This document shows, one piece after another, positions 8,391 through 13,618 of a DNA stretch of 64,000 nt (the first letter of the stretch is position 1; every line of letters starts with the position of its first letter). The position numbers and the translations under genes are program-made. Source of the stretch: Phaeospirillum sp. (lineage in GTDB: Bacteria; Pseudomonadota; Alphaproteobacteria; Rhodospirillales; Magnetospirillaceae); the NCBI GenBank assembly GCA_030651575.1, contig JAUSFB010000048.1:124001-188000 (forward strand), in the 5' to 3' direction. The notes beneath the pieces are model-generated. The model was not told the DNA's origin and did no database searches. It saw nothing but the letters and a program-made list of their open reading frames with translations.

Positions 8391-8436
8391 TTGACAGGTT
8401 GGCACGGGATGGTATTTATTGAGAATGCGTCGCATT
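8391..8436 (+). promoter_or_regulatory. Promoter with Fur-box-like palindrome upstream of the DUF2325 gene
   Basis: TTGACA at 8391-8396 is a perfect -35 element; TTTATT (8415-8420, 18-base spacer) or TATTTA (8413-8418, 16-base spacer) can act as -10. Immediately downstream lies AATGCG-T-CGCATT (8424-8436), a perfect 13-base inverted repeat within TTGAGAATGCGTCGCATT. This closely resembles Fur operators of the TTGAGAATGATTCGCATT type. Its position over the predicted transcription start suggests repression. Assignment to Fur rather than Irr or another regulator is inference. Confidence 0.5.
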
Positions 8437-8490
8437 TACACTCTATATCGTCTGACGCTCCATTCTCTTTCGCCGCAGGACCATCCCGCC

Positions 8491-9705
8491 ATGTGCGATC
8501 AATGTCTCCATCCGACGTCTGCCGCCGCCATTCCCCGCCGTCGCACCAAGCTGTGGGAGATCGACGGTCAGTGGCACTGCACCATCATCGGCACCTGCCT
8601 GACCCTGGGAGAGTTGAAGGCGACCGCCACCAGGCTCGGGGTGCAACTGCACTCGGCCAAGCCGAGCGACCACGAGGTCCACACCGCCATGATCCTGTTG
8701 GTCAAGCGCGAACGGGTCGTGGGCAAGGCGGTGAACAAGCTGCTGGATCGCAAGCACGGCCCCATGGTCCGGCGGTTCGACAAGGTCGAGGGTGAGGATG
8801 CCCTGACGATGCTGTGGCAGGAAATGCTGGCCAAGGGAGAGGTCGCCGCCGCTTGCTGGGCGGTGCTGTCGCATCCCGACGCCACCGACGCCCTGCGCAA
8901 TCTGGTCTTCGGCGATATTCACATGCTGTCGCATCAGGTTGGGGCGGCCAGCCGGGCCGATCTGCGCCGGGTTCATGCCCTGGAGCGGGAAAAGGCCGAA
9001 TTGGAGGCCCGAATCGCCCGCCAGCAAGGACGGTTGAGAGGCGAAGTTTCCAGGCGCAACACCGTGATCCGAGAATTGCGGCAAAGACTGGATTGCGAGA
9101 TCGCCGAGACCCGCCGGCTTGCCTTCGCCGCCCAGCCGGCCGAGGAAATGGAGCGCCTGCGCCGGGCGGTCCTCGACTTTCAGAGCGACCTGAAGAACGA
9201 GCTGGCATTGCGCCGGACGGCGGAAGGCGAGGCGCGCCAGGCCATGATGGTCATGCGCGATCTTGACCTGCGGCTGGCCCAGGCACTTCAGGATAATAAC
9301 GAGCTAAAGGGTGATCTTGCCGCCTCGGAAGGACGGCTGGCGGCCTTTCTCGGCAGCCAGGACGGAGTGGGGGGATGCTCGGCCGAATGCGCCAGTCTCG
9401 ATCTGTGCGGTCGCTGCATCCTGTTCGTCGGTGGCCGCAGCCAGCATCTCCCCCATTTCCGGCGGCTGGTGGAGGAGTGCAACGGCACCTTCACCCATCA
9501 TGACGGTGGGTTCGAAGAAAGCATAACCAAGCTGCACGGATTGTTCGGTCGCGCCGACGCCGTGATGTTTCCGGTCGACTGCGTCAGCCACTCGGCCCAT
9601 GACGAGGTCAAGCGGCTGTGCCGCCGTTGGGAAAAACCCTTTGTTCCGATCCGTCATTCGGGAATGGGGGCCTTCATCCGCGCCCTGGCCAGCGTCGCCG
9701 AGTAA
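8491..9705 (+). CDS. DUF2325 domain-containing protein with coiled coil
   Basis: About 404 residues from ATG 8491. The N terminus has a Cys motif (MCDQCLHP) and a globular part. The middle (about residues 155-290) is a charged coiled coil (VHALEREKAELEARIARQQ and following). The C-terminal DUF2325 domain reads CILFVGGRSQHLPHFRRLVEE, then HHDGGFEES, and ends with VPIRHSGMGAFIRAL. The C-terminal domain function is not established. The promoter carries a Fur-like palindrome, and the gene converges on the fez-like operon with only 15 bases between, so an iron- or redox-related role is inferred from context. An upstream in-frame ATG at 8419 would lie inside the operator and is rejected. Confidence 0.8.
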   Translation: MCDQCLHPTSAAAIPRRRTKLWEIDGQWHCTIIGTCLTLGELKATATRLGVQLHSAKPSDHEVHTAMILLVKRERVVGKAVNKLLDRKHGPMVRRFDKVEGEDALTMLWQEMLAKGEVAAACWAVLSHPDATDALRNLVFGDIHMLSHQVGAASRADLRRVHALEREKAELEARIARQQGRLRGEVSRRNTVIRELRQRLDCEIAETRRLAFAAQPAEEMERLRRAVLDFQSDLKNELALRRTAEGEARQAMMVMRDLDLRLAQALQDNNELKGDLAASEGRLAAFLGSQDGVGGCSAECASLDLCGRCILFVGGRSQHLPHFRRLVEECNGTFTHHDGGFEESITKLHGLFGRADAVMFPVDCVSHSAHDEVKRLCRRWEKPFVPIRHSGMGAFIRALASVAE

Positions 9706-9720
9706 TAATCGGGGACGGGT

Positions 9721-11799
9721 TCAGGCAGCGCCCTGCCGCCGTCGTCTCAGCGCGTTGAGCAAGATGCCGATGGTGGCGCCGTTGTGCAGCACCGAGGTGG
9801 CGATGGGCGACAGCAGACCCAGGGCCGCCGCCCCCAGAATGGCGGTGTTGAGGCCGACCGTCGCCCGGTAGTTGGTCTTGATCAGGCCCATCACCGCATT
9901 GGCCGCTTCCTTGGCATCGGCCACCCGCTCGACCTCGTCTTCCAGCAGGGCGATATCGGCGGTCAGGCGGGCGATGTCGGCACCCTTTTGCATGGCGATG
10001 CCCACATGGGCTCCGGCCAAGGCGGGGGCGTCGTTGACGCCGTCGCCGATAAAGGCGATCCGTGCCCCTTGGGCGCTCATTTCCTCGATGATGCGGGCCT
10101 TGTCCTCGGGCATCAGCTCGGCGTGAAAGCCATCCAGACCCAGAATGGCGGATAGCTCCTCCGCCCGGTCACGATGGTCGCCGGTCAGCATCAGGATGCG
10201 CCGCGCCCCCAGCTCGCGCAGCCTGCGGATAGTGGCCGCGCTGGTCGGGCGAATGCTGTCCTTGAGGGCGAGCAATCCCAGCAGCCGGCCGCCGAAACCG
10301 ATGAATAGCAGGGTCTTGCCCTCGCGGTACAGGCGGTCGATCTCGTCCTTGTGCTCCGAGGTGTCGATAGCCTCGTCTTCCTCGATGAAATGGCGCGATC
10401 CCACCACGATCCGCTTGCCGTCCACCACGCTGGCCACGCCGTGGGCAACGATGAACTGCACCTCCTGATGGTCGAAATGGCGGTTGTGTGTGGCTCGCGC
10501 CGCGTTGACCACCGCCATGGCCAGCGGGTGAAAGTAGTGCTCCTCCACCGAGGCCGCCAGACAGATCAGGTCTTCGGGGCTGTACTGGGTGTCGAAGGTG
10601 ATGGCGTCGGTGACCTCCAACATGCCGGTGGTCAGTGTGCCGGTCTTGTCGAAGACGAAGGTGTCGGCTTGGGCCAGACGTTCCAGCGCCATGGCGCCCT
10701 TGACCAGGATTCCAGCCTGCCCGGCCGCGAACATCGCCGATTTGAAGGCGACCGGTGTGGCCAGCTTCAGGGCGCAGGAATAATCGGCCTGTAGAACCGA
10801 GGCGGCGCGGCGCCAGTCGCCGGACAGCAGGAAGGAGCCCCCGGCCAGTTTCAGCACGGTGGGCACCAGCCGGTCGGCCAGCCGCGACGCCTCCAACTGC
10901 GCCTCGCTCTTGGCGACCAGGGATTGTTCGACGTAATCGGCGATGCGCGCCGCCGCCGTGCTGTTTCCCACCTGTTCGGCGTAAACGGCGAGGCGGCCTT
11001 CCTCCACCAGGGTGCCGGACAGCACCGATGAGCCCCGGGTCTTGACCACCGAAATGCTTTCGCCGGTCATGGCGGCCTCATTGACGGTGGCTTCGCCACT
11101 CAGCACGGTACCGTCTACCGGGACGACCGAGCCGGTGGCGATGATCACCGTATCGCCCACCGCCACGGCGATGACGGGTTCCAGCATCTCGACCCCGTCG
11201 CGCAACACCCAGACCTCGTCGCTGGCCGGGCGCAGCAGATGTTTCAGCAATTCGTCGGAGCGACGGGCGATGGAATCTTCCATGTACTCGCCCAACGCCA
11301 GCATGAAGGTGGTGGTGTTGGCGGCGGTATGGTCGGACCGGCCGAGCGAAATGGCGACCGCCATGCCTTCCAGCACATGCGAGGTCACACCGCTTTGGCG
11401 GTAATCGGCCAAGGCATGGCGCAGCAGCGGCAAGGCGCCGGCCAGCGAGACCGGCAGCCGCAACGGCGCCGGCAACAAGCCGGTGCCCAACAAGGTGACC
11501 AGGGCGGCGGTCACCGGCCCGCGATCGCATCGCCGCGCCGGCTTCGTTCCGGATGGCTGCGTCAGCAGGGACAGCCTGTCCCGCACGGACTCGGCGTCGG
11601 TGGCGGCGGGGTCGAAGGCCACCACCAGCGAATGGGCGCAGGCATTGGCCCGCGCCGATGTGACGCCGGAAAGGCCGGCGGTCAGACGCTCCAGATCACC
11701 GATATCGGCCGCCATCCCACGCGGAAAGCGATAGCGCAGCCGGACCCGTCCAGGCAGGCGGTGGACGATTTCCACCGCCGCCAGCCAAGGCTCGGTCAT
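9721..11799 (-). CDS. fezB: P1B-type metal ATPase, FezB-like (ferrosome)
   Basis: 692 residues from the ATG at 11799, which overlaps the TGA of the preceding gene (ATGA). Residues 1-80 form a degenerate HMA-like domain with HRLPGRVRLR instead of a CxxC metal site. P-type ATPase landmarks follow: TGES (245-248), the phosphorylated Asp in DKTGT (384), the P1B HP pair (424-425), TGDH, and GDGVNDAP (585 on). The intramembrane CPC position reads YSC (340-342), without proline. No cysteine-rich metal-binding domain exists. It is the last and largest of six co-directional genes, matching ferrosome operons, where FezB (a P1B-6 ATPase) is thought to load iron into a membrane compartment. The substrate is inferred. 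Confidence 0.8.
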   Translation of the reverse strand: MTEPWLAAVEIVHRLPGRVRLRYRFPRGMAADIGDLERLTAGLSGVTSARANACAHSLVVAFDPAATDAESVRDRLSLLTQPSGTKPARRCDRGPVTAALVTLLGTGLLPAPLRLPVSLAGALPLLRHALADYRQSGVTSHVLEGMAVAISLGRSDHTAANTTTFMLALGEYMEDSIARRSDELLKHLLRPASDEVWVLRDGVEMLEPVIAVAVGDTVIIATGSVVPVDGTVLSGEATVNEAAMTGESISVVKTRGSSVLSGTLVEEGRLAVYAEQVGNSTAAARIADYVEQSLVAKSEAQLEASRLADRLVPTVLKLAGGSFLLSGDWRRAASVLQADYSCALKLATPVAFKSAMFAAGQAGILVKGAMALERLAQADTFVFDKTGTLTTGMLEVTDAITFDTQYSPEDLICLAASVEEHYFHPLAMAVVNAARATHNRHFDHQEVQFIVAHGVASVVDGKRIVVGSRHFIEEDEAIDTSEHKDEIDRLYREGKTLLFIGFGGRLLGLLALKDSIRPTSAATIRRLRELGARRILMLTGDHRDRAEELSAILGLDGFHAELMPEDKARIIEEMSAQGARIAFIGDGVNDAPALAGAHVGIAMQKGADIARLTADIALLEDEVERVADAKEAANAVMGLIKTNYRATVGLNTAILGAAALGLLSPIATSVLHNGATIGILLNALRRRRQGAA

Positions 11800-12113
11800 C
11801 AGCCTTGCCCGGCCGCCAGTTCCGCCTGGATATCGGCGGCCTGTTCCTTCATCTCGGCCAACCCTCCCGCCAGTTCGGAATACAGCTTGAGACCCGAGCG
11901 GATCAGCTTGCCGCGCAGCGCCTCGTCGGCCAGGACATAGGTGACGGCGGCGCCGATCAGGGCGCCCACCAGGAACTGTTCGGACGGCTGGCCGGGCAGC
12001 AGGCGGGTCAGGCCGCTCAACATGCCGCCCTGGCCGTCGCCCCGAGCGGGAGTGGCGCTCCAATTGTCGTTGCGCTTGCCGTTTTTCGCCTTTTTACGCT
12101 TCTTCTTGGCCAA
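11799..12113 (-). CDS. Small membrane protein with glycine-zipper helix, fez-like operon
   Basis: 104 residues from a TTG start with AGGAG seven bases upstream. The N terminus is very basic (KKKRKKAKNGKR) and Gly-rich. One hydrophobic helix with small-residue spacing (FLVGALIGAAVTYVLA, about residues 47-62) is followed by an amphipathic helix (LKLYSELAGGLAEMKEQAADI) resembling YtxH-type or PspA-like tails. The stop codon overlaps the start of the ATPase gene and its own start overlaps the preceding gene by 20 bases, so the genes are translationally coupled. The family is not recognised with certainty. The small, basic, single-span architecture suits a membrane-compartment structural protein. 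Confidence 0.7.
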   Translation of the reverse strand: MAKKKRKKAKNGKRNDNWSATPARGDGQGGMLSGLTRLLPGQPSEQFLVGALIGAAVTYVLADEALRGKLIRSGLKLYSELAGGLAEMKEQAADIQAELAAGQG

Positions 12114-12423
12114 GGGGGTTCTCCTGAGTGTGGGGGATCTGCAATGCGGTTTCGGCCGTCACGATGGCGGCTGCGGCGACGATCACGGCCGTGACGCCGG
12201 TGCGGTAGTCGCGGCGTCCGATCGCCTCGGCCGCCTTGGTGCCGGCGGCCAGGGCCGCGCCGCCCTGGATGCCGTGGCGGAAGATCTTCCGCCAGGGGGG
12301 CGGAGTGCTTGCCGCGGCGCGATCCTGCAAGGCCGACAACAACGCCGTAGCGATGAAGCCGCGCAGGAACACTTCGGCGGTGGAAGCCGCCGCAGCCTTG
12401 CCGCCGCGCCGCTTGCGCTTCAC
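12094..12423 (-). CDS. Small Ala-rich membrane protein, fez-like operon
   Basis: 109 residues from a GTG that overlaps the previous stop (GTGA, 12420-12423). A basic N terminus (KRKRRGGK) precedes a weakly hydrophobic helix (VFLRGFIATALLSAL). After a PPPWRKIF segment come Ala/Gly-rich stretches (GIQGGAALAAGTKAAEAI, then TGVTAVIVAAAAIVTAETAL) that could insert in or bend a membrane. No known domain is recognised. The tight packing between two other small membrane proteins is the main clue to its role. Confidence 0.68.
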   Translation of the reverse strand: MKRKRRGGKAAAASTAEVFLRGFIATALLSALQDRAAASTPPPWRKIFRHGIQGGAALAAGTKAAEAIGRRDYRTGVTAVIVAAAAIVTAETALQIPHTQENPLGQEEA

Positions 12424-12737
12424 GGGGCGGTTCCGCCGTCAGCCGTCGGGGCGGCCTTGGCTTTGCGGGCAGCCGGCTTGCGGACACGGACGGGCTTGGC
12501 CGTCGTGACGGGATCGGCGGCGGCGGGAGTCAGTTTGGCCCGCAGATTGGCCGAGGATGTCTCGATGGCCGTCAGACCGGAGACGGTCGCGTCGCGCAGA
12601 CTGGCCTGCGCCTGGGTCAAGCCCTGACGAGCCTTGCCGCCGATTCCTTCCAATTCCAGGGGCGGGGCCTTCTTCAGCAGCCGGATGCCGACAATGCCGG
12701 CGACCAGTCCCGAGGCGAAGGTGAGCAAAGGATGCAT
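12420..12737 (-). CDS. Small N-terminally anchored protein with Lys/Ala/Pro-rich tail, fez-like operon
   Basis: 105 residues from ATG 12737, with GGTAAC-type spacing but a weak ribosome binding site. One N-terminal membrane helix (LLTFASGLVAGIVGIRLLKK) is followed by an amphipathic stretch and a disordered tail rich in Lys, Ala and Pro. This layout resembles DUF5132/DUF1490-type PacL-like proteins, which form platforms with P1B ATPases in mycobacteria. That resemblance is by architecture only. It sits third in the six-gene operon. Confidence 0.7.
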   Translation of the reverse strand: MHPLLTFASGLVAGIVGIRLLKKAPPLELEGIGGKARQGLTQAQASLRDATVSGLTAIETSSANLRAKLTPAAADPVTTAKPVRVRKPAARKAKAAPTADGGTAP

Positions 12738-12760
12738 GGCGTTACCTTTCAATGGGGGGA

Positions 12761-13063
12761 TCAGGCGTGGGCCAGGGACCGCAGCAACTGTTCCGCATGG
12801 GGAGAGCGCGTTCCGTCGACAATATCTTGCCAGGCGGAGGGGGAGATAAGGGCGGTGTCGTACTCCACCACGCAAGAGCGGGCCAAAAGGTTGACGTTGA
12901 CCGAGCGGATTCCCGAGGTCCGTGATGCGGCATCGACGAAATGCCGCACATCCGCCGCCGCGCCATCGGCCTTGCCCTCCAACTTGAGGCGGACCCGGCC
13001 AGGAATATGGTGGGCGATTCGCGCCTGCCGGGCGAACCGCCAGAGACCTTCGATGGTATTCAA
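12761..13063 (-). CDS. HMA-like domain protein with PGRxR motif, fez-like operon
   Basis: About 100 residues if started at TTG 13063, which has GGGA eight bases upstream and lies after the stop of the preceding gene; an earlier in-frame ATG (13153) would overlap that gene heavily. HHIPGRVRLKLEG at about residues 18-30 matches the motif in the ATPase N terminus and in the first gene. The rest (SGIRSVNVNLLARSCVVEYD) follows the beta-alpha-beta pattern of HMA_2 domains lacking CxxC. No membrane span is obvious. Possibly it interacts with the ATPase or with iron; the function is unproven. Confidence 0.7.
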   Translation of the reverse strand: MNTIEGLWRFARQARIAHHIPGRVRLKLEGKADGAAADVRHFVDAASRTSGIRSVNVNLLARSCVVEYDTALISPSAWQDIVDGTRSPHAEQLLRSLAHA

Positions 13064-13097
13064 TGAGAGAGTCCCTATCTGCGGCCAAAGCGCGGAA

Positions 13098-13523
13098 TTA
13101 CTGCAATATCTTCTTGCGATGATTGGCGAGGTGAACCAGCAGGAAGGCCACATGCACGGCCCCGAACACCGCGTGCAGCTTCTTGCCCACCGACAGGGCG
13201 ATCAGCGTTCCCGCCAGGGCGGTCAGCATGCCGATCTTGGCCGGACGGTTGAGACTCCACAGGGACAGCCCCTCTTCGGAGGAAGCCTCTTCATCCACAC
13301 TGAACATGGCGCCAATCCGGGCTTCAGTCACGGCAGGCGCCATCCGGGCGAGATCGTAGCATAGCACGATGCTGCCGCAGGCCGGGTTGCCCTCGGCCGC
13401 CGTCACGCCATCCCAACCGGCCAGCACCGTCACGAACTCGGCATTGCGCACTGCCGAGCGCAGACGGGGATGCCGCAGCCTCAGGCGGCCGGGCACATGC
13501 GACGCGATACAGGTCATGCTCAT
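13098..13523 (-). CDS. HMA-like domain membrane protein with PGRxR motif, first gene of fez-like operon
   Basis: 141 residues. ATG 13523 is preferred over 13559 because GGGGGAGA lies 8 bases before it. HVPGRLRLRHPRL stands at about residues 9-21, followed by an HMA_2-like fold (VTVLAGWDGVTAAEGNPACGSIVLCYD) and two C-terminal hydrophobic helices (IGMLTALAGTLIALSVG and LHAVFGAVHVAFLLVHLA) ending in a basic tail. First gene behind the promoter at 13590-13618. In known six-gene fez operons the small membrane proteins are needed for compartment formation; which one this corresponds to is not resolved here. Confidence 0.72.
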   Translation of the reverse strand: MSMTCIASHVPGRLRLRHPRLRSAVRNAEFVTVLAGWDGVTAAEGNPACGSIVLCYDLARMAPAVTEARIGAMFSVDEEASSEEGLSLWSLNRPAKIGMLTALAGTLIALSVGKKLHAVFGAVHVAFLLVHLANHRKKILQ

Positions 13524-13562
13524 GCCGAAATTCTCCCCCGCGCGGTGGTCACTCGCCACTGC

Positions 13563-13618
13563 TGCGAATGCTTCGCAAAATTAACCTGCTTCATAGGCTA
13601 CCAAGGCAAGCCCGTCAA
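13563..13618 (-). promoter_or_regulatory. Promoter and Fur-like operator of the fez-like operon
   Basis: Read on the minus strand: TTGACG (13618-13613), a 17-base spacer, then TATGAA (13595-13590) form a good sigma70-type promoter. About 12 bases downstream of the -10 lies TGCGAA-GCA-TTCGCA (13577-13563), a perfect 15-base inverted repeat of Fur-box type. An operator over the start site implies repression, so the operon would be expressed in iron starvation or another derepressing condition. The regulator is inferred. Confidence 0.6.

Follow-up and report, generated by a model that had tools for sequence, protein, structure and literature searches.

A predicted ferrosome (fez) operon of the Rhodopseudomonas type in a Phaeospirillum genome

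We analysed a 64,000-nucleotide stretch of Phaeospirillum sp. DNA (contig JAUSFB010000048.1, positions 124,001-188,000; hereafter the window), in which an earlier note had proposed a six-gene operon resembling the ferrosome (fez) operons; ferrosomes are small iron stores enclosed by a membrane. Our results support this proposal: the locus is very probably a bona fide fez operon of the Rhodopseudomonas type, a reading to which we assign a probability of roughly 0.86. We favor it because the locus agrees with Rhodopseudomonas gene by gene and in gene order, its ATPase groups with FezB-type enzymes in a tree, its first gene is FezC-like, and related operons at other loci have iron genes as neighbors. 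The ferrosome system is already known and this locus is a further example of it. An intact, fully collinear ferrosome-type operon is now placed in the Magnetospirillum group, a main model group for magnetosomes. The papers listed in our literature searches (subscription papers and supplements lay outside the search) showed no report of a fez operon in Magnetospirillum, Paramagnetospirillum, Phaeospirillum or Azospirillum.

Gene content, gene order and comparison with Rhodopseudomonas

The locus is a single compact operon of six genes, all on the minus strand, spanning window positions 9721-13523:

13098..13523, minus strand: gene 1 (o1), 141 amino acids (aa), ATG start; N-terminal HMA_2 domain and two membrane helices; FezC-like putative haem cytochrome
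12761..13063, minus strand: gene 2 (o2), 100 aa, TTG start; HMA_2 with an HHIPGRVRLK motif, without CxxC and without a membrane helix
12420..12737, minus strand: gene 3 (o3), 105 aa, ATG start; N-terminal membrane helix, C-terminal tail rich in Ala, Pro and Lys
12094..12423, minus strand: gene 4 (o4), 109 aa, GTG start; basic at the N-terminus, with a QGGxAL motif and one clear membrane helix
11799..12113, minus strand: gene 5 (o5), 104 aa, TTG start; basic at the N-terminus, with a single membrane helix and a C-terminal half that is strongly conserved
9721..11799, minus strand: gene 6, 692 aa, ATG start; FezB-type P1B ATPase

The six overlapping or closely spaced genes and their lengths are as the earlier note had described them, with overlaps of 4 bases between genes 3 and 4, 20 bases between genes 4 and 5, and 1 base between genes 5 and 6. 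The note had also given the small proteins single or paired membrane helices, which holds for four of the five. By hydropathy (19-residue mean of at least 1.5, with gene 1 taken as a 139-aa version and gene 4 as a 92-aa trimmed version), gene 1 has two helices, genes 3, 4 and 5 have one each, and the 100-aa product of gene 2 has none. The basic tails that it mentioned apply, as judged by eye, to the C-terminus of the 105-aa protein; in the 109-aa and 104-aa proteins the basic stretch is N-terminal.

We compared the six genes with their copies in Paramagnetospirillum caucaseum SO-1 (L110) and Magnetospirillum sp. SS-4 (L047). The third codon position carries most of the differences in all six (for the 100-aa gene against SO-1, 15, 8 and 37 differences at codon positions 1, 2 and 3), and the genes therefore behave as coding sequences. 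This conservation bears on whether the operon could be a remnant or silent copy in an organism that no longer makes ferrosomes. In six of seven fetched relatives pnp followed by msrB is kept, and the window genes that come after this pair were not found in those relatives' stretches (one of which is only 4.5 kb long); as the SO-1 operon also lies on another contig, the place of the operon varies within the genus, as might be expected of a remnant. The six open frames and the predominance of third-position divergence from SO-1 and SS-4 speak against this idea, which we consider very improbable.

To describe the gene families we used the best 80 of 137 relatives (L045-L124), obtained from a scan of named genomes with the FezB alignment. 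They come from Magnetospirillum/Phaeospirillum, Azospirillum, Rhodoblastus, Rhodopseudomonas, Aromatoleum, Thauera, Azoarcus, Aeromonas and other genera. Together with two loci from relatives and the window, and with four duplicate loci dropped, they form a set of 83 loci. The window's six-gene order on one strand recurs in 54 of the 83; the remaining 29 have a subset of the genes or a gene-1 homologue elsewhere, and since several of these are short contigs, gene absence there is unproven. The Aromatoleum/Thauera/Azoarcus-type loci (among L059-L123) have the same families around FezB and differ from the window in often having an extra rubrerythrin/ferritin-like gene and FeoAB nearby; in this comparison a gene-1 homologue lies on the opposite strand in 12 of the 83 loci.

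Rhodopseudomonas provides the closest match to a described system. FezB was found at an expectation value (E) of 1e-150 in 5 of 16 Rhodopseudomonas-group genomes, four of which (CGA009 not among them) have homologues of all six genes in the window's order, with FezB 72-73% identical. The small proteins are more divergent, at only 34-55% identity: gene 2 is 48-49% identical to its homologue, gene 3 55% over 71 aa and gene 5 49% over 61 aa, and the gene 4 homologue matches the family hidden Markov model at E about 1e-28. Lack of similarity between the small proteins and fez products, which would have spoken against the proposal, was thus not seen: all five match, in order, the fez-type operon of these four genomes. 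The closed Rhodopseudomonas genome G334 carries the operon 2.55 Mb into its 5.27 Mb; taking the gene total of CGA009 to be about 4,836, RPA2333 would sit at the same fraction of the genome. The six-gene fez operon RPA2333-2338 of CGA009 is reported to make ferrosomes (PMC12016538). Another study describes rpa2333-2338 as "implicated in metal ion transport" and lowered in low light along with iron genes (PMC6879726).

Gene 2 matches HMA_2 (4.3e-07), and among its 71 family members GRxR occurs near the N-terminus in 69, PGRxR in 53, and CxxC in the N-terminal region in none (family searches used 12761-13060, one residue shorter than the called frame). Pfam gave no match for gene 3 or gene 4. Gene 5 is weakly YtxH-like (E 0.044, below the cut-off), and its family is present in all 83 loci.

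The FezB-type ATPase and the FezC-like first gene

Gene 6 encodes a heavy-metal P1B ATPase (TIGR01525, 9.4e-137). Its N-terminus has a degenerate HMA_2 domain with an LPGRVRLR motif (E 0.0043, below the cut-off), the phosphorylation site is DKTGT, and SCAL takes the place of CPC in the membrane motif. The 83 FezB proteins have SCAL (72), ACAL (10) or SCSL (1) at this site; two CPH matches sit near the N-terminus, outside the membrane motif. As the earlier note had observed, the 692-aa protein contains no CxxC; a motif check found none in any of the six window proteins, and the N-terminal region of FezB lacks it in all 83 loci. GRxR is found near the N-terminus in 74 of these 83 proteins.

In a 41-row tree with long branches, a single branch with a Shimodaira-Hasegawa-like approximate likelihood ratio (SH-aLRT) support of 100 separates 19 FezB-type ATPases, among them rows from Rhodopseudomonas, Aeromonas, Arcobacter, Vibrio and Cereibacter, from the other 22 rows. 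Of these 22, 19 have CPC, and the rest comprise KdpB together with rows whose motifs are TPC and CSC. A published table lists P1B-6 as Fe(II) (PMC7558416), and the tree has no labelled P1B-6 reference, so that the P1B-6 label for gene 6 rests on its clade-mates and that table.

These data bear directly on the possibility that gene 6 is a copper, zinc or cobalt efflux ATPase beside unrelated small genes. The top curated matches, generic models of heavy-metal, Cd and Cu ATPases, would fit such an enzyme. However, the Cu/Zn-exporter signature of a CPC membrane motif with a CxxC N-terminal domain is not found in gene 6, which has SCAL instead. The enzyme also falls outside the CPC-type (Cu/Zn-like) ATPases sampled, in a tree without a P1B-4 (Co) reference, so that the placement in a Cu, Zn or Co clade that would have counted against the earlier note did not appear. 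With the iron-gene context at other loci added, this explanation has only a minute chance of being correct.

FezC is reported to be a DUF4405-related haem cytochrome whose modelled haem sites are formed by a homodimer (PMC10979944). One public record annotates the gene-1-type protein only as an HMA2 domain protein. Gene 1 indeed matches HMA_2 (PF19991, 2.1e-08) at its N-terminus, with a PGRLRLR motif, and this domain is followed by two membrane helices in which H117 and H131 form the pattern HxxxGx9H. Of 68 gene-1 family proteins 67 have this pattern, where shuffling gives an expectation of 0.85; the other five operon families lack it, and 15 of 18 DUF4405 segments taken from relatives have it. 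When the gene-1 family was aligned with the DUF4405 segments by hhalign, the probability was 89% with the C-terminal part and 81% over the full length, compared to 0.1-1.5% for the other four small families used as a control. Among the 34 gene-1 members scanned (of 68), all have HMA_2 and 24 have DUF4405 at E values of 10 or less, the best being 0.0027; CT_C_D, an implausible family, also recurs in 9 members of the same scan. GRxR lies near the N-terminus in 67 of the 68 proteins and PGRxR in 65, with CxxC in the N-terminal region of one.

The AlphaFold2 model of gene 1 (mean predicted local distance difference test score, pLDDT, 89) consists of an alpha-beta domain and two long helices, residues 88-109 and 114-140, the latter of which contains both H117 and H131; its first domain resembles HMA domains with a middling Z. 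We infer that gene 1 is this operon's FezC, in which a putative haem cytochrome is combined with an HMA_2 domain, the likeness to DUF4405-related cytochromes being found at family level only. The first gene of the six-gene operon would in this way be tied to FezC.

A separate observation concerns the Arcobacter plasmid operon (L131), which is adjoined by a standalone 83-aa protein whose top match is DUF4405 (E 0.0079).

Iron context and proposed mechanism

We examined neighboring genes in 88 loci, namely the 80 named loci, two from relatives, four plasmids, L129 and the window. FeoB is within reach in 19, not counting another match of 55 residues in L104, and FeoA in 13, the query included. 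A rubrerythrin/ferritin-like protein was seen in 24. This last assignment is weak (Rubrerythrin at 0.00054 to 0.069, below the cut-off, and no match for L063), and ligand-type residues, compared by eye, differ among the members. A Cereibacter plasmid operon is surrounded by FeoA, TonB receptors, FecR and a sigma factor, and an Azospirillum plasmid operon is adjoined by an iron ATP-binding cassette (ABC) transporter.

Such neighbors are compatible with a fez operon and equally with an iron-efflux (detoxification) module of the cell membrane, in which the ATPase and its accessory proteins would export Fe(II) to the periplasm and no organelle would form. P1B ATPases are mostly exporters, and sequence alone does not distinguish a plasma membrane location from a vesicle one. 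Nevertheless, in its conserved small membrane proteins and its FezC-like cytochrome the locus matches the type of operon for which ferrosome formation is reported, and we regard simple efflux as unlikely.

As a fez operon of the Rhodopseudomonas type, the locus would work as follows. FezB, the P1B ATPase, would pump cytoplasmic Fe(II) into small membrane vesicles that would serve as the iron store. HMA_2 occurs in a soluble protein, in FezB and in gene 1, each time with a (P)GRxR motif and no CxxC; these three probably dock with one another and pass iron on. The FezC-like product of gene 1 would be a membrane haem-b protein, its two invariant histidines, which lie 14 residues from each other on the same helix, binding haem in a dimer; it may move electrons across the vesicle membrane, setting the redox state of the iron. 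Shaping, coating or tethering the vesicle is the probable role of the three small proteins with a single helix.

Two further systems can be likened to this one by description. Desulfovibrio magneticus RS-1 is reported to have a P1B-type FezB and a DUF4405-related FezC (PMC10979944); it makes magnetosomes too, while the present genome has no magnetochrome domain. In Clostridioides difficile, FezA and FezB, a membrane protein and a transporter, are required for ferrosomes and Fur-repressed (PMC12574912), although two genes are named there against six in the window.

Several points weigh against the fez assignment. The Fez proteins of CGA009, D. magneticus, Shewanella and C. difficile lay outside the sequence comparison, and because the Rhodopseudomonas genomes compared are strains other than CGA009, its FezB type is deduced from the six-gene count and map position. 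FezB at E 1e-150 is missing from 11 of the 16 Rhodopseudomonas genomes, and G335 has a different FezB type (43% identical) with a reduced gene set. The rows of the long-branched ATPase tree include no labelled P1B-6, P1B-4 (Co) or P1B-5 reference, and the fuller PGRxR motif occurs in only 36 of the 83 FezB proteins. DUF4405 was not matched by the window's gene 1 itself in the Pfam scan, which gave HMA_2 only, and the matches of its relatives are weak one by one and come from members that are not independent. The context loci include near relatives, so that their counts are not independent, and no iron gene was found beside the window operon, only a candidate operator and a DUF2325 gene.

Distribution, magnetosomes and neighboring features

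Among 289 sampled alphaproteobacterial genomes, two have FezB at E 1e-120, the present genome and one other (41% identical). Within the genus, FezB orthologues at least 74% identical occur in 7 of 17 genomes, own included. The earlier note had suggested that a ferrosome would be a second iron organelle, possibly beside magnetosomes. For this organism a second organelle beside magnetosomes is unsupported because its genome (99.99% complete by tool) has no match to the magnetochrome domain (PF18509), the one marker used; this domain is present in 11 of the 17 genomes of the genus. No photosynthetic reaction centre was found in the genome either, compared to 3 of the 17 that have one.

Conversely, the magnetotactic strains P. 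caucaseum SO-1 (G010) and Magnetospirillum sp. SS-4 (G007) carry both the marker and the full six-gene operon (at 4.2-8.1 kb of loci L110 and L047), which makes them candidates for two iron organelles per cell. We predict that both strains build ferrosomes as well as magnetosomes. FezB is found in all five near-complete genus genomes without the magnetosome marker and in 2 of 11 with it, a negative association (Fisher p 0.0048; 16 genomes, G012 dropped) that is not significant once independent pairs are counted. In a single-gene tree the present genome is sister to a genome with the marker and without fez. That ferrosomes and magnetosomes are alternative iron organelles, replacing each other by gain and loss within the genus, is a doubtful though conceivable proposal. 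If true, SO-1 and SS-4 would be natural double-organelle strains for watching competition for iron.

Variant gene sets were also seen. In L129, L130, L132 and L177 a second FezB type, 39-43% identical, comes with a smaller set of genes: all four have a gene-5-like protein, FezB and HMA_2 proteins of the gene-1 or gene-2 kind, whereas gene 3 found no match in any of them and gene 4 was matched at most weakly (L132). Judged from gene content, this reduced set suggests a smaller core. In L039 (G004:C22), from a relative with photosynthetic reaction-centre genes, genes 3-5 and FezB are present, with neither gene 1 nor gene 2 found next to them. Many betaproteobacterial fez loci (L059, L061, L063, L068, L091, L103, L107 and others; gene at about 3.9-4.9 kb of the locus) and the Arcobacter plasmid L131 have the extra rubrerythrin/ferritin-like gene, whose product has a hydrophobic stretch at its C-terminus and no Pfam family at the cut-off.

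Two features flank the window operon:

13563..13577, no strand: palindrome TGCGAAGCATTCGCA, about 40 bases upstream of gene 1; candidate Fur-type operator
8419..9705, plus strand: DUF2325 protein gene (PF10087, 1.4e-22), convergent with the ATPase gene

The palindrome at 13563-13577 is a candidate operator for an iron regulator of the Fur type. It is not kept in relatives. The exact pattern TGCRAANNNTTYGCA has two sites in the whole genome, against one for the reversed control; the second site of the 15-base palindrome (L136, G000:C68:272752-272766) lies at the start of a solute-binding-protein ABC operon. DUF2325 is near the operon in 6 of the 88 loci (the window, L058, L066, L107, weakly L116, and the Arcobacter plasmid L131), recurring, not constantly, beside fez operons of distant bacteria on either strand.

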